From NCBI GenBank assembly GCA_018662005.1, contig JABJHA010000010.1:1-64000 (forward strand): a stretch of 64,000 nucleotides of DNA. The letters run 5' to 3'. This document shows, in pieces, positions 41,810-58,903 of this stretch. Numbering within the stretch: the first letter of the stretch is position 1; each line of letters begins with the position of its first letter. The notes under the pieces are model-generated. The model worked only from the letters and a program-made list of their open reading frames with translations, was not told the DNA's origin and ran no database searches. The position numbers and the translations under genes are program-made. The stretch comes from Rhodospirillaceae bacterium (lineage in GTDB: Bacteria; Pseudomonadota; Alphaproteobacteria; Rhodospirillales; JABHCV01).

Positions 41810-42541
41810 TTAACGGCTGGAGTCGGATTCCAGCACCCTGCATATTCTTCTCACCGCGACGATCCCGAAGACGGCTGCGAGAACGCCGAGCAGGGCCGGG
41901 AAAATGGCGAGAAGGATCATCGTCGAATTGTTATCCTTCAAGGTATCGATGGATTCTTCCGTTTCCATAAGATCATCGCTGGCGTTTTCTCTGATCAGGG
42001 TGATTAAATTGTGGACACTCCCGGAAAGTGTCTTTGCCCTGGAATCAAATTCCGGCATCATCTTGTTTCCGCCAGCAGGCCCTTCGGCGATATAACGGTT
42101 CGCCATGATCATACCATGGTCATAAAAAGGGTCGAATTTTTCCGTGATATCATTAAGAAGACCCGTCATTTCAGTCAGATTGACCGTACCGGCGATTTCG
42201 TGGGCTTCGGCGACCGCTTTTTTTAAATCCTTGGCGTATAAAGCGGCCTGTTCAAAACCGTCATCCAGGCCATCCAGGCCGCGGGTTGCAGAAATATCGG
42301 TCAGGTATTGTTGAACCTGAATGATGTCGTAGCGAATATCATTGACGATACCCAGCAATTTCAAATCGTCGCGGGCGACGCGCTCCAACATTTCATCGGT
42401 TTGCTCGAGATAGGGCTGTTCAATGAACAACTGAACGACGGACCACCCGGCGATCATCGAGGTTGAGATAAAGAGAGCAAAAATGATCATGTTCATTTTG
42501 GCCCGGATAATCTTGACGATATTGAGAAGATCCTCATTCAT
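41810..42541 (-). CDS. Two-helix membrane protein with periplasmic helical sensor-like domain
   Basis: This 243-residue protein was not assigned to a named family. The start at 42541 (MNEDLLNIV) overlaps the preceding gene by 8 bases. A helix at ~18-40 and another near 210-232 flank a ~165-residue domain of long helices (DIIQVQQYLTDISATRGLDGLDDGFEQA...). This arrangement resembles the four-helix-bundle sensors of chemoreceptors, including the DIRYDIIQVQQYL start, but no HAMP or output domain follows. It may sense a ligand and signal through partners. Confidence 0.7.
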   Translation of the reverse strand: MNEDLLNIVKIIRAKMNMIIFALFISTSMIAGWSVVQLFIEQPYLEQTDEMLERVARDDLKLLGIVNDIRYDIIQVQQYLTDISATRGLDGLDDGFEQAALYAKDLKKAVAEAHEIAGTVNLTEMTGLLNDITEKFDPFYDHGMIMANRYIAEGPAGGNKMMPEFDSRAKTLSGSVHNLITLIRENASDDLMETEESIDTLKDNNSTMILLAIFPALLGVLAAVFGIVAVRRICRVLESDSSR

Positions 42542-42755
42542 CTTCTTTTCTTCCTTCTGGCAACTCTTGGGTACCCTGCGGGGTTTCATTTTCTACCGCA
42601 GGAACGGGTTCAGGGTGGCGATTTGCGTCCAGCTTCCGTTTTGCTTCTTCCAGGTCGTTGACCCTGGCCGCTCTTCTGGCGATTAAAACGGTAATAAGTG
42701 ATCCCCCGATGACAATAGCATAGCCACCAAAATAGATGTGTTCTGTCGTGACCAT
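42534..42755 (-). CDS. Small single-helix membrane protein (CcmD-like pattern)
   Basis: This 73-residue protein has one N-terminal membrane helix preceded by EHIYFGGYAIVIGGSLITVLIARRA, then a charged helix (NDLEEAKRKLDA) and a Pro/Glu-rich tail. The order resembles CcmD but the typical GYxxYVWxSY motif is incomplete, and a true ccmD is already present in the ccm locus. It overlaps the two-helix gene downstream, so the pair is probably translated together. Confidence 0.6.
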   Translation of the reverse strand: MVTTEHIYFGGYAIVIGGSLITVLIARRAARVNDLEEAKRKLDANRHPEPVPAVENETPQGTQELPEGRKEDE

Positions 42756-42761
42756 CTTTGC

Positions 42762-43430
42762 TTATTGCTCTCTCACGTGTAGGGGGATTTGTTCGGTTTG
42801 AAATACGAAAATACAGCTTTCAACGGTGGCTTCTGAAACAGAGCCCGGCAGGACCGGGAAAAACGGCGTGCGTTCAATTTCTCGCCACCTCCCTTGGGCC
42901 GCGAGGCTGGCGAGTTTGTCTTTAAAACCAAGGGGTTCATAGACCAGATTGCTTAAGGAAAAGATCAGGTGCCCACCCGGTTTGGTAATCCGGATCATTT
43001 CGTCAAGCGACTGGGGCGGTGCGTGTCCGGCAGTCAGAACGCCAAAGGATACAACGGCAGCAAACCGGCCGTCCTCAAAGGCGAGTTCTGTGCCCAACGC
43101 CATTTGCTTAAGGTTTGTGTAGACGGATTTTACCGCCGCCTGATCCAGCATCCCTTGGGAAAGATCAATCCCGGCCAGATCAAGGTAGCCCATGTAAGAC
43201 AGGATCTCGCCCAGTAAGCCGGTCCCGCAACCGGCATCAAGAAGGGTGCCGCTATCAGCGTCAATATGCCGTCCGATCAAGCCTGCGGCGACGGCGGGAT
43301 TTCGGTATCCGAATGCTGTCAGATCACTGTCGTAACGGGTCGCCCAGTCATCGTATATGGACGTCAGTTCTTCGCCGTTTTGCGCTCCGTAAACCTGGCG
43401 GAGAAATGCTTCCCGATCGTCACTGCTCAT
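42762..43430 (-). CDS. Class I SAM-dependent methyltransferase
   Basis: This 222-residue enzyme starts at ATG 43430 (MSSDDREAFLRQVYG); the open frame extends upstream into the cytochrome gene but that part is not coding. Motif I is LLDAGCGTGLLGEIL, followed by LAGIDLSQGMLDQA, and the post-II and III regions FAAVVSFGVLTAGHAPPQSLDEMIRITKPGGHLIFSL are typical. It is similar in layout to WBSCR27-type methyltransferases. The acceptor is unknown. It sits 16 bp after the diheme cytochrome gene. Confidence 0.85.
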   Translation of the reverse strand: MSSDDREAFLRQVYGAQNGEELTSIYDDWATRYDSDLTAFGYRNPAVAAGLIGRHIDADSGTLLDAGCGTGLLGEILSYMGYLDLAGIDLSQGMLDQAAVKSVYTNLKQMALGTELAFEDGRFAAVVSFGVLTAGHAPPQSLDEMIRITKPGGHLIFSLSNLVYEPLGFKDKLASLAAQGRWREIERTPFFPVLPGSVSEATVESCIFVFQTEQIPLHVREQ

Positions 43431-43446
43431 GAAATCGCGCCCAATC

Positions 43447-43974
43447 CTATTCCCATACTTTCTTAACCAGAATGCCGAAGGCATTGACATAACCCGGTAC
43501 GACGACGAAATCATCTTCAAAATTCCCCTCCGTCGCCTTGGTATGGCATTTTTGGCAACGTGCTTTTGAGCCAACGGCCTTGCTGGTGAAAGCGGCGGCG
43601 GGAACATCGTCGTGTTTGCGGATAAAGCGCGGTGTGTCGGTAATCTTCATGGGCGGATTGTTCAGATCGACCCCGGCGAGAAACTTCTGGGCCCGCCGGT
43701 GCGGGTCCACATCCGAAGCGTGCGCCAAATGATAGTCCGTCACTTCCTTCAATGTTGCGGGCGACAGGCTGGCGTCTTCACCAAAATGATTGGCAAGGTC
43801 GGCCAGCATGGCAGCCCATGATTTCGCCGGCAGCATCTGCGGACGGTACAAAAGATGACATTCAGCGCATTCGGTTTTCACCGCCTCGCTGGCAATTGGT
43901 GGAAAGGGGCCGCCGGCCATCGCCGGTGAGGCGAGAACGGCAAGCAATCCACAAAGGGTGAGGATACGGATCAT
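43447..43974 (-). CDS. Diheme cytochrome c (DHC type)
   Basis: This 175-residue periplasmic protein has a signal peptide (residues 1-20, ending AMA). Two covalent haem sites are visible, CAECH (near 36-40) and CQKCH (near 140-144). Further conserved histidines are in NHFGEDAS, YHLAHA and RKHDDVP. It is homologous to the C-terminal part of the fusion at 44416-45537. It resembles the Rhodobacter DHC that transfers electrons to SHP. It starts 2 bases after the SHP stop, so is co-transcribed. Confidence 0.88.
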   Translation of the reverse strand: MIRILTLCGLLAVLASPAMAGGPFPPIASEAVKTECAECHLLYRPQMLPAKSWAAMLADLANHFGEDASLSPATLKEVTDYHLAHASDVDPHRRAQKFLAGVDLNNPPMKITDTPRFIRKHDDVPAAAFTSKAVGSKARCQKCHTKATEGNFEDDFVVVPGYVNAFGILVKKVWE

Positions 43975-43975
43975 C

Positions 43976-44404
43976 TTATTGCGAGATCATAAAAGTTAGA
44001 TAGTCGCCCTTTTCCTGGGCCGTGCATTCGCGGCCAAGGACGCTTCTGCAATTGCGGAAGAACCACTTGTCGACTTTTTCCGTATCCGTATAACGGGCAG
44101 CATTTTTCGAGACGGCCATGGGGTCGATGACCTTTCCGGCGCGGGTCTCGCCGGTGGCAAACGGTGTTGCCCCGTGGCAGGTGGAACACGAAGGGGTATC
44201 GGGCTTGCCCCCTGAATGTTTTGTGGTGAACAGGGTATTGCCAGCGGCAGCAGAAAAACCGGCAAAGGCAGGGTTATCTGCTTTGGCCTGGGCGGTGAAG
44301 GCGGCGACGATGGCGTCGCGGGCCGGATTGGCCTGGGCGGCACCAGTGCCAAGGGTGCTAAACAAAACGGCACTCAGGGCGATAGCAAGACTTAACATCT
44401 TCAT
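43976..44404 (-). CDS. shp: SHP-type monohaem cytochrome c (DUF1924)
   Basis: This 142-residue periplasmic cytochrome has a signal peptide (1-24, ending AQA) and a single haem site CSTCHG near residue 76. The DUF1924 pattern PDTPSCSTCH...FATGETRAGKVIDPMA...NCRSVLGRECTAQEKGDYL is clear. The start at 44404 (MKMLSLAIA) has AGGAG 8 bases upstream. SHP from Rhodobacter sphaeroides binds oxygen and NO, with an Asn haem ligand that detaches on reduction. It lies between the two diheme cytochromes, so is likely the terminal partner of an electron chain. Confidence 0.9.
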   Translation of the reverse strand: MKMLSLAIALSAVLFSTLGTGAAQANPARDAIVAAFTAQAKADNPAFAGFSAAAGNTLFTTKHSGGKPDTPSCSTCHGATPFATGETRAGKVIDPMAVSKNAARYTDTEKVDKWFFRNCRSVLGRECTAQEKGDYLTFMISQ

Positions 44405-44415
44405 TGGGGTCACTC

Positions 44416-45537
44416 CTATTGTTTCGGGATTTTGATGTTCTGGTCATCAAAACGGCCGCTGGCGGCGTCCTGATGACAGGATTTGCAATGGGATTTACCA
44501 CCCACACCTTTTCGTTTGAAAACGTCCGGGGCGATGTCGTCATGTTTGCGAACCCAGTACGGGGTTGCTGAAATCTGGTTGGGTGCTGCGGGTGATACGA
44601 CGCGAAAACGGTTTGATGCTTCCGTGTCCCATTCTTCGGCAGCGTGGGCGGAAAGATAGGCGGTAATGGCAATTGCCGTTTTCGGGCGAAGGCTGGCGTC
44701 CTCGCCAAAATGATCATCCAGACTGGCCATCATGCCTGTCCACGATGCGCGCGGCAGAAGGCTTGGGTGATAAACCTCGTGACAATCGCCGCACTCGGTT
44801 TGGAAATCTTCGTTTTCGGCCATTTTGAGCAGGCCCGATGGCGGCATCGTCGAAAAGGCCCATAACAGGGAACCGGCAATCATCGCGAAACCGGCCATAG
44901 CGGTTATCGCCGCAAGCGGTCGGGCGTCCCGGTGGGTGGGTGGCTTGACGTTATCGGGGACGCGCTTGTATCCGTCGATCATGGATTTGATCAGGTTTTC
45001 CCCGCTCAGGCGGATTTCTGTAAAGACGCCGAAAATATGAAAGACAACCAGGGCCATCAGGACAATGGTCAGGGCGCCATGAATGCCCGCAGCCATATCG
45101 CCGACCTGATAATTGGCGGCCCCTGCTAGTGGCCCCTGGTTTTCCTCTCCGCCAAGCACCAAAAGACCGCTTAAGGTGATCCCGGCGAGAATGAAAATAA
45201 GCGCAAAAATCATCAGCGCGCCCGCCGGATTGTGGCCAATGTAATGGGTTGGGCGCAGGAAAAACACTTCCCGGATATGGGCGAGGACTTCTGCGGGTGT
45301 AAAAGTAAAGGTTTCCAGCCTTGAATATTCAGAGCCGAAAATACCCCAGACAAGGCGGAAGATCACCAGCAATACGGTACCATAACCAGCCCATAAATGA
45401 ACGCCCATCCACCATTCGGGGGACAGGAAACCGGTCATCAGACCGATCACTACCAGGGAGACAAGCGACCAGTGAAACAGCCTTGTCGGCAAGTCCCATA
45501 CCTTGACTTTGTGATCTTTAATTTCAGTGTCAGACAC
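44416..45537 (-). CDS. Cytochrome b561-type domain fused to a diheme cytochrome c
   Basis: This 373-residue fusion has a Ni-hydrogenase/b561-type cytochrome b at ~1-195, with four helices and histidines in RLFHW, GVHLW, GHNPAG and VFHIFG. A linker helix (~208-230) follows, and then a periplasmic DHC-like domain with CGDCH (~256-260) and CKSCH (~352-356). It could take electrons from quinol and pass them to SHP. In known SHP loci the b and DHC components are usually separate proteins; here they are fused and a second DHC is encoded nearby. It is first gene of the minus-strand operon. Confidence 0.88.
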   Translation of the reverse strand: MSDTEIKDHKVKVWDLPTRLFHWSLVSLVVIGLMTGFLSPEWWMGVHLWAGYGTVLLVIFRLVWGIFGSEYSRLETFTFTPAEVLAHIREVFFLRPTHYIGHNPAGALMIFALIFILAGITLSGLLVLGGEENQGPLAGAANYQVGDMAAGIHGALTIVLMALVVFHIFGVFTEIRLSGENLIKSMIDGYKRVPDNVKPPTHRDARPLAAITAMAGFAMIAGSLLWAFSTMPPSGLLKMAENEDFQTECGDCHEVYHPSLLPRASWTGMMASLDDHFGEDASLRPKTAIAITAYLSAHAAEEWDTEASNRFRVVSPAAPNQISATPYWVRKHDDIAPDVFKRKGVGGKSHCKSCHQDAASGRFDDQNIKIPKQ

Positions 45538-45709
45538 GGCAAGCGGGGTCCTTATTTATCTATGGCTGGCAAGGTATACATTATAAGCTGAACCACACCT
45601 GATGTCCCGGTTCAGGTAGCGTTCATCTTAGAACTCTTACAGTTATCAGAGGGCTCGGTTGAGGGTACTTTGGGCTTTCAGTGGGCTGTGTCTGGAGAGC
45701 TGTTTCACA

Positions 45710-46411
45710 ATGGACAAATCAACGGCTGTAGAGGTGTCGCCTGACAATATTTCAGAGCGAAAGAGCGTCCGTATCTGGGACCTGCCAACCAGGGTCTTTC
45801 ACTGGGTGCTGCTGGTGCTTGTCGCTGTCGCCTGGATATCGTCAGAGGCCGACGGAGCGTTGTTCAACATTCATATCGTTTCGGGAATCATCATTCTGGC
45901 GATGATTGTTTTTCGTATCATCTGGGGCGTCATCGGTTCACGCCATGCCCTGTTTACGGATTTCGTCAAGGGCTGGTCGAAAGTCCGCGCATACGCTAAA
46001 AACCTGTTCATGTTCAAAGCGCCCTTTCACGCCGGTCATAATCCTGTTGGCGGCTGGATGATCATCGCCCTTCTGGTCAGTCTGGCGGTGACGTCTTTCA
46101 GTGGTTTGTTCATATCCGATGATGGTTATTCAGGACCTTTGGTTTACACGGTATCGCCATGGCTATCGAACGCCATGGGTGATCTGCATGAAGGGGTTGC
46201 CGGACTGCTTGGTTTCCTGATTGGCTTTCACGTGCTGGGCGTTATCGGGCATGGTTTGATGTCGGGCGAGAATTTGCCGCGGTCCATGTGGAACGGCAAC
46301 AAATCAGTCCCCGCCGGACGCAATATTTCAAGCATCGCAAGTGTTGGCTGGTGGCGGGTTGCCCTGGCGGTCAGCCTTTCCATTGCCGCTATATGGCAAT
46401 TGCTACCGTGA
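45710..46411 (+). CDS. Cytochrome b561-type membrane protein
   Basis: This 233-residue cytochrome b lies divergent from the fusion and is homologous to its N-terminal part. It has four helices with haem ligand candidates in RVFHWVLL, IHIVSG, GHNPVGGWM and GFHVLGV. The start used is ATG 45710; a frame extension to 45659 is less likely. There is a 172-bp divergent promoter region. It overlaps the PepSY gene by 4 bases (GTGA). Together they could form a second quinol-linked electron entry. Confidence 0.87.
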   Translation: MDKSTAVEVSPDNISERKSVRIWDLPTRVFHWVLLVLVAVAWISSEADGALFNIHIVSGIIILAMIVFRIIWGVIGSRHALFTDFVKGWSKVRAYAKNLFMFKAPFHAGHNPVGGWMIIALLVSLAVTSFSGLFISDDGYSGPLVYTVSPWLSNAMGDLHEGVAGLLGFLIGFHVLGVIGHGLMSGENLPRSMWNGNKSVPAGRNISSIASVGWWRVALAVSLSIAAIWQLLP

Positions 46412-46815
46412 AGCACTTTCTTTTCCTCCTCGCCGCCATCTGCCTGTTTACCGGGCAGGCCCAGGCCGATGACAAATCCGATCATGAACGCGCCCGCATG
46501 GCTGTCGAAAATGGCGATATTGTTGCCCTGTCCCTGATTCTTGAGAAAGTTGAATCCATTTACGAAGGCTCGATCATCGAGGTCGAACTGGAAGACGAAG
46601 GTGATGAGGGCTTCGAGAATGAAGACGATAAGGACGCGGGCAGCAAGCATTTTATGAGCGGCTTTATCTATGAAATCAAACTGTTGACGCCGCAGGGTAA
46701 TCTTCTGAAACTTAAGCTGGATGCTCGAACCGCAGAACTTATCGAGGTCAAGGGGTATGGTGAAGCGGAGGCTCGCAAAAACATCCAGATGCCGGAAAGG
46801 GAGCAAGAACCATGA
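46408..46815 (+). CDS. PepSY domain periplasmic protein
   Basis: This 135-residue protein starts at GTG 46408, overlapping the cytochrome b stop; ATG 46393 is the alternative. It has a clean signal peptide (MKHFLFLLAAICLFTGQAQA). The mature part (ALSLILEKVESIYEGSIIEVELEDE ... FIYEIKLLTPQGNLLKLKLDARTAELIEVKGYG) is a PepSY domain with a very acidic insertion (EGDEGFENEDDKDA). PepSY proteins often sit next to two-component sensors and modulate peptidases or kinases. The response regulator start overlaps its stop by 4 bases. Confidence 0.8.
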   Translation: MKHFLFLLAAICLFTGQAQADDKSDHERARMAVENGDIVALSLILEKVESIYEGSIIEVELEDEGDEGFENEDDKDAGSKHFMSGFIYEIKLLTPQGNLLKLKLDARTAELIEVKGYGEAEARKNIQMPEREQEP

Positions 46816-47483
46816 GGGTTCTGATTGTTGAAGATGAGGTCGAACTGGCCTCGCAGATTGGCAAGGCGCTGCAGGAAGCCGGTTACACCATCGACATCGC
46901 AAACGACGGCGAGGAAGGTGAGTTTCTTGGCGAGACCGAACCCTATGACGCTGTTATCCTCGACCTGGGATTACCCAAGGTCGATGGCCTGACGGTTCTT
47001 GAGCGCTGGCGCGGGCAAGGAAAAACCATGCCGGTGCTGATCCTGACAGCGCGGGAAACCTGGAGCGAAAAAGTCTCGGGCTTTGACAAAGGGGCCGATG
47101 ATTACGTCACAAAACCCTTCAACATGGAAGAACTGCTGGCCCGGCTACGCGCCTTGATTAGACGTTCAGCAGGGCTGGCGACGCCCCTTATCGATTGCGG
47201 ACCGATTCAGTTCGACACCCGCAGTGGCAGGGTCACGCTCGAGGGTATGCCGATAACGTTGACGGCCAACGAGCTGAAAGTTCTCTCTTACCTGATGCAT
47301 CATCTGGACAGGGTTGTCTCGCGTACAGAACTGACCGAACACATTTACGATCAGGATTTTGATCGCGATTCCAATACCATTGAGGTGTTTATCGGCCGCC
47401 TGCGCAAAAAACTCGGGAGCGGGGCCATCAAAACCCACCGCGGTCGCGGCTATTCCCTGTCGCCGTCAGAAAAAGAAACCTGA
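46812..47483 (+). CDS. OmpR/PhoP-type response regulator
   Basis: This 223-residue DNA-binding regulator has a receiver domain at 1-115 with acidic residues in IVEDEVE, phospho-acceptor Asp in AVILDLGLPKVDG (near residue 51), and Lys in DYVTKPF. A winged helix at ~125-220 (TLTANELKVLSYLMHH ... FIGRLRKKLGSGAIKTHRGRGYSL) follows. It is of the QseB/PhoP kind. The operon order cytochrome b, PepSY, regulator, kinase suggests that it controls the redox cluster, though its DNA sites are unknown. Confidence 0.93.
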   Translation: MRVLIVEDEVELASQIGKALQEAGYTIDIANDGEEGEFLGETEPYDAVILDLGLPKVDGLTVLERWRGQGKTMPVLILTARETWSEKVSGFDKGADDYVTKPFNMEELLARLRALIRRSAGLATPLIDCGPIQFDTRSGRVTLEGMPITLTANELKVLSYLMHHLDRVVSRTELTEHIYDQDFDRDSNTIEVFIGRLRKKLGSGAIKTHRGRGYSLSPSEKET

Positions 47484-47492
47484 AGAGGGACT

Positions 47493-48827
47493 ATGACCGG
47501 ACCTTCCGTCAATCGTCGCTTGATGCTCGGCGCCACATTGTGGATTGCCGTCGCTTTGCTGGTCACGGGCTTTGTGTTGACGGAATTGTTTCGCAATCAT
47601 GTGGAAATCAATTTTGACGAGGAAATGCATGATCAGCTTGAAGAATTGCTGGCCCTTGCCGCCACGGACGCGGACGGTAACACCATTTTCACCCGTCACC
47701 CGGTTGAGCCGCGCTACAACAGGCCGCTTTCGGGCTGGTACTGGGAGATTCTTTCAGCCGGTGAGCCGATCGATAAATCCCGCTCCCTGTGGGATCAGCG
47801 CCTGATTCCACCTGAAAAGCTTTCCCGGGAGCGCGAAACGGCCTTCTATCTTATTGGCCCAAGGGAAGAGTCATTGCGTGCCGTTGCCCGTACCTACACT
47901 TTGCCTGACGCCAAGGCGCCGCTGACCATTCTGGTAGCGGGTCCTGCTGCCGATATTGAAACGGCGACCCGCGGTTTTGCCGGAATTCTGGCTATCGCGC
48001 TTTCCCTGCTGGGGTTCGGATTAATTGCGGCAGCTTTCTTTCAGGTCCGTTTCGGGATCAGGCCGCTTATTCAAATGCGTGAAGAACTGGCCCAGGTGCG
48101 GGCCGGTCGGGCGACCCGCATGATCGGCCCGTTTGCGGCTGAAATTGAACCTCTTGCCGATGATCTTAACGGGCTTCTTGATCATAATGCGGAAATCCTT
48201 GAGCGTGCCCGCACCCAGGCTGGTAATCTGGCTCACGCCCTGAAAACACCACTGGCTGTTTTGTTGAACGAGGCTAATCACGTTGAAGGCGAGGTCGCCG
48301 ACAGCATTCGCCATGAAGCGGCGATGATGAACGATCAGATCAATCGCCATCTGTCAAAAGCCCGGGCCGCAGGCTCCCGTGGGGTTCTGGGTGCTCGCGC
48401 CGACCTGGGGGAAACCGTCCTCGCTTTGCAGCGCACCCTGATCCGCATTCATGATGAGAAAGATCTGGAGATCACGGTGCACGGTGTGGAAGGGCTGTCA
48501 TTCCAGGGCGAGCGTCAGGATCTTGAGGAAATGCTCGGGAATCTGATGGACAATGCCTGTAAATGGTCGGCGGCGAAGGTCCGTGTGGATGGCAGACAAG
48601 AAGGCCAGTGGTTGCTGTTGAGTATCGAAGACGATGGCCCGGGTATTCCCGAAACGGCGCTTTCGGATGTTATCGACAGGGGCCGCAGGCTGGATGAGAC
48701 GACTCCGGGTAGTGGCCTTGGGCTCTCCATCGTGCGTGATGTCGCTGAACTCTACGAAGGAAAACTTGATTTATCCCATTCAACCCTGGGCGGACTGGCG
48801 GCAAGGCTGAAACTGCCCGCAGGTTAA
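47493..48827 (+). CDS. Membrane sensor histidine kinase (PhoQ/QseC type)
   Basis: This 444-residue kinase has helices at ~12-32 and ~160-185 flanking a periplasmic sensor (~33-160) with [17 protein letters not shown], a pattern shared with other PepSY-linked kinases. A HAMP region, the phospho-accepting His in [13 protein letters not shown], and the ATP-binding motifs [18 protein letters not shown] and GSGLGLSIV follow. It begins nine bases after the regulator. The signal is unknown; membrane redox state or metal stress are guesses from the context. Confidence 0.92.
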
Positions 48828-48922: not shown

Positions 48923-50116
48923 ATGTCACATTTCAAGACCATTAACGACCTCGACGTCGCGGGTAAACGGGTTCTCGTGCGTGTTGACCTGAACGTTCCC
49001 ATGCAGGACGGGCGGGTCACCGACACCACCCGCATTGACCGTACCGTGCCGACGTTAACGGAGCTGTCCAACAAGGGCGCCAAAGTCATCGTCATCTCGC
49101 ACTTCGGTCGCCCCAAAGGACAGGTTGTTCCCGAGATGTCGCTGGCCCCTGTTGCCGAGGCCCTGTCCCTTTCATGCGGCCAGCCCGTCGCCTTTGCCAC
49201 CGACACGGTTGGCGAGCGCGCTCAAATGACCATCGACGCGATGGCCGAAGGCGACATTGTGATGCTGGAAAATCTGCGTTTTCATGCCGATGAAGAAGCC
49301 AACGACAAAGCCTTTGCCGTCAAGCTGTCGAATCTGGGGGATGTTTATGTCAGCGATGCGTTTTCGTGCTCGCACCGGGCCCATGCCTCAACCGAAGGAT
49401 TAGCGCGCTTGCTGCCATCGGCTGCCGGTCGACTGATGCAGGTCGAAGTGGAATCCCTGGCGCGCGCCCTGGAAAATCCGCAATCGCCGGTCGCCGCTGT
49501 TGTCGGTGGGGCAAAGGTGTCGACAAAAATGGAAGTGCTGGGCAACCTCGCGCAAAAAGTCGATGTTCTGATCATCGGCGGCGGCATGGCCAACACATTC
49601 CTGTTCGCCAAGGGGATTAATGTTGGTAATTCCCTGTGCGAAAAAGAGATGGCTGACGCGGCCCGCGATATCCTCAGCGCCGCCGAAAAGGCTGGTTGCG
49701 ATATTGTGCTTCCCGTAGACGCCGTCGTTGCGCGCGAGTTTAAAGCCGGGGCGGAGAGCCAAACCGTCGCCCTGGACGCCATACCGGCGGACGCGATGAT
49801 GCTTGATGTCGGCCCGGCCTCGGTTGCTGACGTCACGGCAAAACTCGAGCACTGCAAGACACTGGTCTGGAATGGCCCCTTCGGTGCTTTTGAAATACCG
49901 CCCTTTGATGCCGGCACCAACGCCGTCGCCCAAGCCGCAGCGCGGATGACGGCCGCAGGCCAAATGACCAGTGTCGCCGGTGGTGGCGACACGGTTGCGG
50001 CGCTCGCTCACGCCGGGGTCAGTGATGATTTCTCGTACATCTCAACAGCCGGCGGGGCTTTCCTGGAATGGATGGAAGGCAAGAAACTTCCCGGCGTTGA
50101 GGTGCTAAGAAAGTAA
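48923..50116 (+). CDS. pgk: Phosphoglycerate kinase
   Basis: This 397-residue glycolytic/gluconeogenic enzyme transfers phosphate between 1,3-bisphosphoglycerate and ADP. The start at 48923 ([12 protein letters not shown]) was chosen. [22 protein letters not shown] carries the substrate-binding DxN region. [16 protein letters not shown] and [11 protein letters not shown] are nucleotide-binding motifs. The usual gap or fba partners are absent. The 3' end overlaps the convergent chemoreceptor-like gene by 12 bases. Confidence 0.97.
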
Positions 50117-52039
50117 ATCTTCGTCGCTGCTTTTTTGATCCGGAACATCGGTGATCTGGTCTTGCATTTTGTTGACCAGATTATCCAACATACCACGCAG
50201 ATTTTCCGATTGCTGCAAAAGGTCTGTGGTCACTTCAAGCGCTTCGCTTGATGACAGGCGGGCGATGTCGAGGGCGACATCCCGCGAGTCCCTGATCAGG
50301 GCACCAATATCACGAACGGCCCAGTTGGCTTTGCTGGCGGCGGCGCGAATGGCCTCGAAACGCTGCGCAATGGCATCGGAATTCGTATCCCCGTTTGAAC
50401 GGGCATCGCCGTTCAGAATGACAAGATTGGTATCGGGGTTTTGTGGCGGCGCGTTGATAACCAGCATGTCCGATTGCTCACCGATCAAGGCGATCAGACT
50501 TTCGATAGCACCAATTTTACCTGACGCGTCCGACAGGTTTCTAATCAATGTGCCGGTTCGCTCAGCCTCATCGGCGGCGGCGGTGACGCTTTCGGAAGAT
50601 CGCGCAACCTGTCTGCTGATTGAAGAAATACTGTCCATGGACATTTCGGTCGCGGCTTCAGGGGCGGGGGCCGGTGGTGCTTCTTTGTCTTTGGCGATCT
50701 GTTTTTCGCCGATGTCATCGGCGGTGGCGTCAATGACCTTGCGCAGAAGGGCGACCTCGGCGAGTGCCTCCTTGCCCTTGTCGGCTTCTGCCTTCATGGA
50801 TTGCAAATCCCGGCGCAGCCATTCCGTTTCGGCGCTGGCGGCGTTTCCGCGTTCGGCGTCGCTCTTTGCTTTTTCCATTTCCTCGCCAAGTTTTCTGGCT
50901 TCTATCAGGCTTCCCTTTAAGGCCCAGAAGGCGCGAGCGATGTCTCCGGTCTCATCCTCGTTACCCAGTCCCCAGACGACAATATCCGTGTCACCGCGCC
51001 TGAGGCTTTTCGCCGCCTGGGCAGCGGCGGTAACGGGCCCTGATATGGACCGCAACATGGCCAGGCCGAACAACAGTATCAGCATGACGGCGGCCGCGCC
51101 GCCCGCGGCGATCAGGGTCCGATATTGTTGACGAAGGGTTGCGCGTCCGGCTTCTGCTTCGACAAAATTGTTGCCGGCAAAGTCGGTGATGGCGTCAACG
51201 CTGGGGGCCATGTAGGAAATGATTTCATCAAGACGGTCGCGCGTGTTGTTGGCGACGAGCTTGACCTTGGCGTAGGCGGTAAGCGCGTTGTTAAAGTCGT
51301 TAATCCCAAGCTGCAGGGTGCTTTTGGTTTCCGGGGCCATGGGAATGGAAATCAGCAGCCGGTAGAATTCCTTTTGATGGCTTTCAATGACAATCAGGTC
51401 CCGGCTTATTCCGCTTTCGACAAAATCGGTGGTTGCGGCCCTGATCGCCATCATCGTTTCATTGATACTAAGGGAATCTAGCGCGCTCAGGGTTTTGCCG
51501 ATGCTGCGGATGGCCCGGCGCATGTTGGCCTCCAGACCGGTTAAATCGGGTCCCGAATTTTCTGCCTTCTGCCTGGATTTTTCATACTGCTCGCCGTATT
51601 GGGCAACGGCCTCACGCAGGGTTGAAACGTGCTCACCCATCGGGGCGGCTTCGGGGCGCTGGTATAGTTCGTCGAGCTTTTGACCCAGGGCAGCAGCCAG
51701 GGCGAGATGTTGCTGGGTGGCGGCACGGGCGGCGTCAGAAGTTTGTTTCGACAGATCGCCCTGTTCGGCCCTGATCCGCCAGATATCCCGTTCGATCACG
51801 GCGGCGGAAGCGTTAAGGGCGCTTGCCTGGCTTAGCGTTATGTCGGATTTGGTCAGTTCCTTGTCGACATGATTCAGCCCAAAACCGCCACTGATCAGAA
51901 CAGCGATACCCAACAAGACGAACAACGAGGAACGTGTTGACAGGCCAATCCCGCCCATAAAAGTGCGGTCCTGGAAGTCGTCGGATTCGGGTCCGGACTG
52001 ACCCTTTACTCTATCACCTGAAAATGGCTCAACGGCCAT
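50105..52039 (-). CDS. Chemoreceptor-like protein with degenerate signalling domain
   Basis: This 644-residue protein has an N-terminal helix (~34-55), a ~255-residue periplasmic helical domain, a second helix (~312-332) and HAMP (~333-390). The cytoplasmic part is coiled ([31 protein letters not shown]). The following region has the MCP-type start [59 protein letters not shown]. Then the conserved hairpin tip expected (AARAGExGRGFAVVADEVR) is absent, replaced by [34 protein letters not shown]. CheA/CheW binding therefore seems unlikely. It may act as a decoy or in another pathway. Confidence 0.82.
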
Positions 52040-58575: not shown

Positions 58576-58903
58576 CGCTAATGGCGCTGCTCGTGTTTTA
58601 AAAAAGACGATAGGAGGGCAGTTCAAAAAGATACTTATAGGTGTATATTTTGTATTACTGCTACTTTAGGAGTATCATGGAGTGGCCCCTATTCCAAGCC
58701 GAAAGCGTTCGCTGCAGGATCGCTCGATCACTTTGATCAAGCGGGGCTTGACTTGCCGGGGCCATCTCCATAGAGTGCGCGCCTTACACCGATGCCCATG
58801 ATTTTTTTCGCCTCATGGGGCGCCGCCAGTCCGCGAGTTTCGCGCACTGGCGCATTTGTGTTTGGAATTTTTGGACGACCCTTAAAAGGCCTGTAAGAAC
58901 AAG
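58576..58903. other. Divergent intergenic region between XRE regulator and ffh
   Basis: This 328-bp stretch contains no convincing gene. It holds inverted elements GATACT (58630-58635) / AGTATC (58671-58676) and ATAC/GTAT (58631-58646), which may be operator sites, and the ffh promoter at 58748-58776. Frames in it are under 25 codons. Confidence 0.7.
58748..58776 (+). promoter_or_regulatory. Sigma70-type promoter for ffh
   Basis: TTGACT (58748-58753) and TAGAGT (58771-58776) are separated by 17 bp, close to the sigma70 consensus. It lies about 128 bp before the ffh start and would drive ffh and perhaps rpsP to rplS. Confidence 0.55.

Follow-up and report, generated by a model that had tools for sequence, protein, structure and literature searches.

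The 64,000-nucleotide stretch analysed here (the window) covers positions 1 to 64,000 of contig JABJHA010000010.1 in the Rhodospirillaceae bacterium assembly GCA_018662005.1 and carries two divergent operons around the gene for SHP, a DUF1924 haem protein. On one side, a cytochrome b fused to a membrane diheme cytochrome c (mDHC; DHC for the family) is followed by SHP, a soluble DHC (sDHC), a methyltransferase and two membrane proteins; on the other, a second cytochrome b precedes a PepSY protein, an OmpR-family response regulator and an SK1-type sensor histidine kinase (Table 1). The genes of both operons named in a preliminary description of this DNA were all present, with the expected Pfam domains in all but the two membrane proteins, and since the same gene order was found again in relatives, the cluster is more than a chance grouping. 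It is of a known kind: an oxygen-binding cytochrome with its electron suppliers and its own sensor system. Judging from genome comparison, we consider it likely that this SHP electron-transfer operon, of the type described by Meyer, Kyndt and Cusanovich (Meyer 2010, PMC2909971), is run by its own PepSY-SK1-regulator system through tandem sites that also define a dispersed cytochrome regulon.

Table 1. Features of the SHP cluster in the window, with the evidence for each.
Feature	Coordinates	Strand	Evidence
Chemoreceptor sensor half, truncated: span, helical domain, span; without HAMP or signalling domain	41810..42541	-	homology
73-amino-acid (73-aa) single-span membrane protein, S73 family	42534..42755	-	family alignment
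S-adenosylmethionine (SAM) methyltransferase	42762..43430	-	Pfam; open reading frame (ORF) reaches 43607, probable start 43430
Soluble diheme cytochrome c (sDHC)	43447..43974	-	Pfam DHC; solved relatives 2fw5, 3u99
SHP (DUF1924) haem protein	43976..44413	-	Pfam; alignment; match to 1dw0
Cytochrome b / membrane diheme cytochrome c (mDHC) fusion	44416..45537	-	Pfam Ni_hydr_CYTB + DHC
Possible weaker second tandem ATCAG-N6-TTCAG	45588..45603	-	adjoins minus-strand TATAAT; sequence, promoter scan, inference
Tandem operator (predicted) GTTCAG-N5-GTTCAT, 11-bp period	45610..45626	+	promoter comparisons across loci
Second cytochrome b (b561 type, cyb2)	45710..46411	+	Pfam; separate clade
PepSY periplasmic protein (Orf1/DbfQ-like)	46393..46815	+	weak Pfam match; alignment of relatives
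OmpR-family response regulator	46812..47483	+	Pfam; NCBIfam PmrA/PhoP-like, below equivalog cut-offs
SK1-type sensor histidine kinase (SGWYWE, KSRSLWD)	47493..48827	+	Pfam, NCBIfam, motifs, sensor domain model

SHP matched its Pfam family (DUF1924/SHP, PF09086) at 1.2e-35 (122.2 bits, cut-off 22.5), carried the haem site CSTCH and aligned with the solved chain 1dw0 at 8.4e-29. As in the O2-binding R. sphaeroides type, the aligned protein has the distal asparagine (N), the distal tryptophan (W) four residues ahead of it and both cysteines; the residue numbers 84, 88, 89 and 97 of this type were taken from Meyer 2010. The DHC domain (PF09626) was found both in the soluble protein (1.9e-33), which aligned with its two solved relatives, and in the cytochrome b fusion (3.4e-33), there together with Ni_hydr_CYTB (1.2e-22). 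With cytochrome b, DHC and SHP at one locus, in the order CytB/mDHC chimera, SHP, sDHC, the window has the SHP operon as defined in Meyer 2010. Among the best 80 of 448 loci, a set that may omit records of the window's own genome, the nearest named SHP relatives came from uncultured Rhodospirillales, e.g. isolates NIOZ-UU42 (87% identity) and BS150m-G4 (71%). In the related genome G003 (G and L numbers are our own for genomes and loci), the soluble DHC is split over two frames (L033:7427-7759, minus strand).

The regulatory operon has precedents as well. Meyer 2010 described SHP operons with divergent operons encoding Orf1 (a periplasmic accessory protein), a regulator and SK1, so the PepSY/kinase set, which the preliminary description had placed beyond the known SHP-DHC pair, was already in print, divergent arrangement included. 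By that survey, Rhodospirillum rubrum and Allochromatium vinosum are among the species that have both SHP and SK1. The window kinase (HATPase at 7.8e-18, HisKA below the cut-off) carries both SK1 motifs as variants of SGVYWQ and RSRSLWD; across 20 kinases compared, the window's included, SG[WL]YW[EQ] occurred in 19 and the second motif, searched by pattern, in 17. The PepSY gene lies directly 5' of the regulator, where the accessory protein is expected. The word PepSY is absent from Meyer 2010, and from position we infer that Orf1 is the PepSY protein. Its probable start, chosen by inspection as were those of the second cytochrome b and the methyltransferase, gives a signal peptide and overlaps the cytochrome b stop at 46411; against solved structures the protein gave no match. 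PepSY proteins have been reported as kinase partners, DbfQ binding DbfS directly (PMC12714742). The SK1 sensor domain was modelled with a pLDDT of 88.9, and its best full-length matches included PhoQ chains at a TM of about 0.5-0.57, all of them weak (E > 0.01).

SHP and SK1 tend to occur in the same genomes. Among 120 genomes, the window's own included, SHP was found in 59 and the SK1 sensor domain in 50, with 45 holding both, 14 SHP only, 5 SK1 only and 56 neither (Fisher 4e-15, uncorrected for relatedness and with genomes partly incomplete). At 41 SHP loci including the window, SK1 was linked in 21 cases, lay elsewhere in the genome in seven and was not found in 13, one of which is truncated. 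Of the loci examined, only those of the window and of G001, a genome of the same genus, have the methyltransferase, the 73-aa protein and the sensor half behind the SHP genes.

When the divergent promoter of the window was set beside those of six relatives, the conserved tandem GTTCAG-N5-GTTCAT emerged; in the window it stands in the 45538-45709 divergent promoter. The absence of a regulator-type site from this promoter, which had been named as a refuting result, was not seen, and together with the co-occurrence of SHP and SK1 the conserved site supports the earlier idea of a regulated redox module. The pattern TTCA-N7-TTCA was then counted in about 600 bases around the SHP operon start. In the first set, from which the truncated SK1-less locus L042 was omitted, it was present at 15/21 loci with linked SK1, 4/7 with unlinked SK1 and 0/12 in SK1-less genomes, i.e. 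at 19 of the 28 SK1-positive loci, or 12 of 21 once the seven discovery loci were removed; other gaps from 2 to 13 reached at most 5/28. At 20 further loci kept as a held-out set, the counts were 15/18 with SK1 and 1/2 without, the latter on a 5.6-kb contig of a 77%-complete genome, with other gaps in 0-2 of 20. The third set consisted of named genomes, mostly alpha- and betaproteobacteria and reaching Thiobacillus, Rhodoferax, Aromatoleum and Azospirillum; it was drawn from the best 80 of 448 loci after removal of loci of the earlier sets, duplicates and truncated ones. There, the site was found at 16/21 loci with linked SK1 versus 9/40 without local SK1, and other gaps at 0-3 per class. Shuffled regions had a mean of 0.27 positive loci per set, with maxima of 3/18 and 2/21, and positions outside the search pattern were biased too: of the 40 distinct sites taken from the held-out and third sets, 36 have G at +10. 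The spacing controls, the shuffles and the SK1-less genomes rule out that the tandem arose by chance or from base composition. The tandem is probably the regulator's operator, as judged from genome comparison; neither this operator nor its extension to outlying DHC genes turned up among the open-access papers listed in literature searches for a known operator or for SHP regulation. As for the weaker second tandem of the window, its TTCAG half is kept in L032, L033 and L035.

The site extends beyond SHP promoters. It was present at 12 of 18 SK1 operons that do not lie beside SHP, five of which are in genomes without detected SHP, versus at most 3/18 for other gaps; one gap-6 match sits 407 bases before the PepSY frame of one of these operons, L323. 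In two of the 12 (L331 and L332), PepSY was undetected and the site precedes the regulator. The preliminary description had also named separation of the two operons in related genomes as a refuting result, and separation indeed occurs, at 7/28 SK1-positive loci of the first set and 6/18 of the held-out set (one of these, L128, was misclassed as unlinked, its SK1 lying ~2.5 kb from SHP). The regulatory link nevertheless seems to be kept where gene position is not, because 12/18 SK1 operons away from SHP carry the same site.

The same was seen before DHC genes. In eight SK1 genomes, the site was found at 12 of 17 DHC genes outside the SHP operon (other gaps at most 5/17), always in the gene's orientation and once also in the opposite one; with the five genes first met beside a site left out, the count was 7/12. 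Three of these 17 genes have an in-frame stop and one has just 301 bases upstream. The scan used 29 of the 33 DHC matches of SK1 genomes, G012:C23, G012:C16:27171 and the fragments G005:C128 and G003:C78:8500 being dropped (G012:C16:27171 does carry the site, ~500 bases before its domain), and 17 of the 19 matches of SK1-less genomes, with the fragments G082:C74 and C174 dropped. In the window's own genome, an outlying DHC (L076) adjoins a hemN-like gene. A strict form of the pattern occurred 94 times in 24.5 Mb of the eight SK1 genomes (3.8/Mb) versus 46 times in 32.8 Mb of nine genomes without SK1 (1.4/Mb), so single genomic matches must often be due to chance; read backwards, it gave 9 and 16 matches, respectively. 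Of 14 sites in the window's own genome, six lie within long reading frames (L073, L075, L080, L081, L082 and L083) and are probably such chance matches. On these comparisons, the site probably marks out a dispersed regulon of diheme cytochromes. What is new in this picture is the operator and its reach to outlying DHC genes, both proposed by computation only.

Several further genes adjoin such sites. The window's own genome encodes a pair of small, related secreted proteins in which AEQR-like segments are repeated (L077:1070-1387, minus strand; L079:1578-1958, plus strand), each gene having a tandem site no more than ~120 bases upstream; the G001 counterparts L095 and L222 also have a site. 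At about 1500-1565 of L084, four TTCA half-sites at 11-bp steps, together with one opposite-strand site, precede the gene for a 39-aa membrane protein of the S73 family. In L096 (G003) and L227 (G001), a tandem site lies between divergent, related regulator genes of the rpiR family (HTH_6 + SIS).

The genes that trail the SHP operon are less widely shared. The methyltransferase (Pfam 2.6e-15) has a close homologue among SHP loci only in L032, a locus of the window's genus on the same contig as L214, and G003, also of this genus, lacks the methyltransferase, the 73-aa protein and the sensor half at its SHP operon. Pfam searches with the 73-aa and the four-helix protein gave nothing significant. 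The latter shares homology with the N-terminal regions of longer ORFs, with matches in 40/120 genomes, own included; both longer ORFs that were checked have an MCP signal domain, and one also has HAMP and PilZ. As the window protein ends after its second hydrophobic stretch, we ruled out a full receptor. The earlier wording "two membrane proteins of sensor-like build" fits the four-helix protein, which is sensor-type and lies almost entirely outside the 42534-48827 span assigned to the cluster, and does not fit the 73-aa protein, whose single hydrophobic stretch is short and which lacks features of a sensor. With other tiny membrane proteins of one span, it forms a family that has no name in Pfam or NCBIfam. 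The S73 family was detected in five of the 120 genomes, own included and all with SK1 (the query is short and misses are likely); it was partly gathered from ORFs beside sites, and of its two independent members, in G003 and G092, only the G092 one has a site. In G005, a free copy of the sensor half stands 3' of a homologue of the 73-aa protein with a tandem site just upstream; the pair seems to be a transcription unit of its own there and to have become attached to the SHP operon in G001 and the window. Another G005 gene (L238:1459-2169, plus strand) fuses an S73-like membrane segment to a cyclic-nucleotide-binding domain and has a tandem site at the start of its frame.

The genes flanking the cluster were identified by Pfam as ccmH, ccmI and pgk. 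A 644-aa protein (50105-52039, minus strand), with a weak HAMP match alone, stays beside pgk in L032 and L033. The sole Rfam match in the window, an ffh sRNA (RF01793, 40.6 bits; 58809-58860, plus strand), is unrelated to the cluster.

The genes and their domains, the conserved site with its fixed spacing and its co-distribution with SK1 are consistent with a scheme in which electron flow, signal, binding and direction of control are predicted. Electrons would pass from quinol through cytochrome b, the membrane DHC and the soluble DHC to SHP, as known families suggest and as Meyer 2010 argued for a quinol-driven chain; SHP, the end point, would serve as a c-type haem protein of the periplasm with O2 and NO as ligands. 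The PepSY protein may modulate the periplasmic domain of the SK1 kinase, and the phosphorylated OmpR-type regulator would bind tandem TTCAK-N6-TTCAK sites such as that at 45610-45626, thereby controlling both divergent operons, its own included. The same sites before diheme cytochrome genes elsewhere would give the dispersed regulon. A broader version, which we find doubtful, makes SK1 the master switch of a periplasmic diheme-cytochrome network in which SHP, outlying DHCs, tiny membrane proteins and the sensor half share one TTCAK-N6-TTCAK operator, with the tiny proteins and the sensor half acting as membrane adaptors or co-sensors.

Some observations weigh against control of SHP by a PepSY-SK1 system with this operator. 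The PepSY match lies below its Pfam cut-off (22 versus 24 bits), exact sites are lacking at 9/28 first-set and 3/18 held-out SK1-positive loci, and the counts are not independent, as the loci are related. DHC genes within SHP operons of SK1 genomes never had the site (0/12); its absence from DHC genes of SK1-less genomes (0/17, with gap 5 in 5/17) is no like-for-like control, all of these genes being in SHP operons. "SK1-less" itself means that no match reached E 1e-8 in partly incomplete genomes. In five genomes (G018, G027, G047, G057 and G096), SK1 was detected but SHP was not, so that SK1 cannot be bound to SHP alone. The nine positive third-set loci without local SK1, where only the locus was examined, would also be expected if the site belonged to another regulator that co-occurs with SK1, its assignment to this regulator being drawn from genome comparison. 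This is very unlikely in our judgement, since the site also stands before the SK1 operons, whether or not these adjoin SHP, and is missing from all 12 first-set SHP promoters in genomes without an SK1 match. The place of the second cytochrome b (Pfam 1.8e-23) in the system is less settled. It falls in a clade separate from that of the SHP cytochromes b (support 100/98), and the tree rules out a recent copy of the latter. Instead of being a dedicated part, it may be a long-standing resident of the ccmI-pgk interval that became joined to the PepSY operon by position, a reading that we lean only slightly against. The separate clade fits it, as do G016 (82% complete, no SK1 match), where a relative stands in the interval from ccmH/ccmI to pgk and SHP is on a different contig, and L046 (G025), where SHP, PepSY, regulator, kinase and pgk lie together without it. 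However, at ten loci (the window, L032, L033, L035, L055, L067, L122, L126, L130 and L134) this gene has the tandem site on one side and the PepSY gene on the other, and it overlaps or abuts the PepSY frame.

As to the signal, published expression data favour metal or sulfide conditions at least as much as gas. In A. vinosum grown on pyrite versus sulfide, Alvin_0022 (DUF1924) rose by 7.10 log2 units, the DHC gene 0023 by 5.54, 0024 by 5.32, the b561 gene 0021 by 5.13, the DHC gene 0020 by 4.38 and the regulator gene 0025 by 4.15, with the metal efflux neighbours 0019 (FieF) and 0015 (CzcA) at 3.51 and 3.02 (PMC11267869). We take these locus tags to be the Allochromatium vinosum SHP cluster of Meyer 2010, where CzcABC and CzcD adjoin SHP. 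Moreover, Fe2+ activates BqsS (PMC12666569), and a neighbouring PepSY protein is predicted to bind it (PMC12714742). A response to divalent metal, above all Fe(II), with PepSY/SK1 as the metal sensor and the cytochromes used for metal-linked electron transfer or detoxification, is a tentative possibility; by Pfam, though, no gene of the window cluster resembles a metal efflux gene, and growth on pyrite alters sulfide, growth rate and redox state as well. We consider it rather unlikely that SHP is an NO dioxygenase or oxygenase induced by low O2 or NO. The O2-binding residues of the window SHP agree with such a gas response, and Meyer 2010 cited NO dioxygenase activity and PrrBA control in R. 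sphaeroides, but PhoQ is the closest, if weak, match of the kinase sensor domain, and the control system does not track the O2-binding type. In 8 of 17 aligned SHPs, aspartate (D) replaces the distal N; such proteins are expected not to bind O2 (Meyer 2010), yet all eight of their genomes have SK1 and six of the eight carry the tandem site in the SHP promoter region. Still less probable is a PepSY-SK1 pair that monitors the envelope in the manner of DbfQRS of Vibrio cholerae, with SHP/DHC as one output of a stress response: the Dbf pathway, with DbfQ bound to DbfS, answers membrane damage (PMC12714742), and Meyer 2010 noted SK1 in Vibrio, but the predicted targets are rich in haem proteins.

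In comparison with Meyer 2010 (PMC2909971), the window has the same divergent accessory protein-regulator-SK1 operon with both SK1 motifs. It differs by the second cytochrome b that heads the regulator operon and by the methyltransferase, 73-aa protein and sensor half that trail the SHP operon; the operator and the outlying DHC targets are proposed in the present analysis. DbfQRS likewise has a small periplasmic PepSY protein, a regulator and a kinase in one operon, with direct PepSY-kinase contact that has been shown there and would be expected here; its outputs are biofilm, metabolism and stress genes, and the word "cytochrome" is absent from the main text (PMC12714742). BqsRS/CarRS of Pseudomonas aeruginosa shares PepSY neighbours and a tandem pentamer operator of 11-bp period (PMC4682146, PMC12666569). 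The BqsR operator reads TTAAG-N6-TTAAG (PMC4682146), whereas the half-site in the window is TTCAK, so the site is not of the BqsR sequence, and Fe(II) sensing is a feature of BqsRS (PMC12666569).

What role SHP plays in the cell is unsettled, and Meyer 2010 had only gene neighbourhood to argue from. An operator shared by SHP, distant SK1 operons and outlying DHCs makes this role testable, and PepSY-linked two-component systems gain a second operator with the BqsR-type 11-bp layout. Finding what switches the site on should reveal what SHP and the additional diheme cytochromes do.

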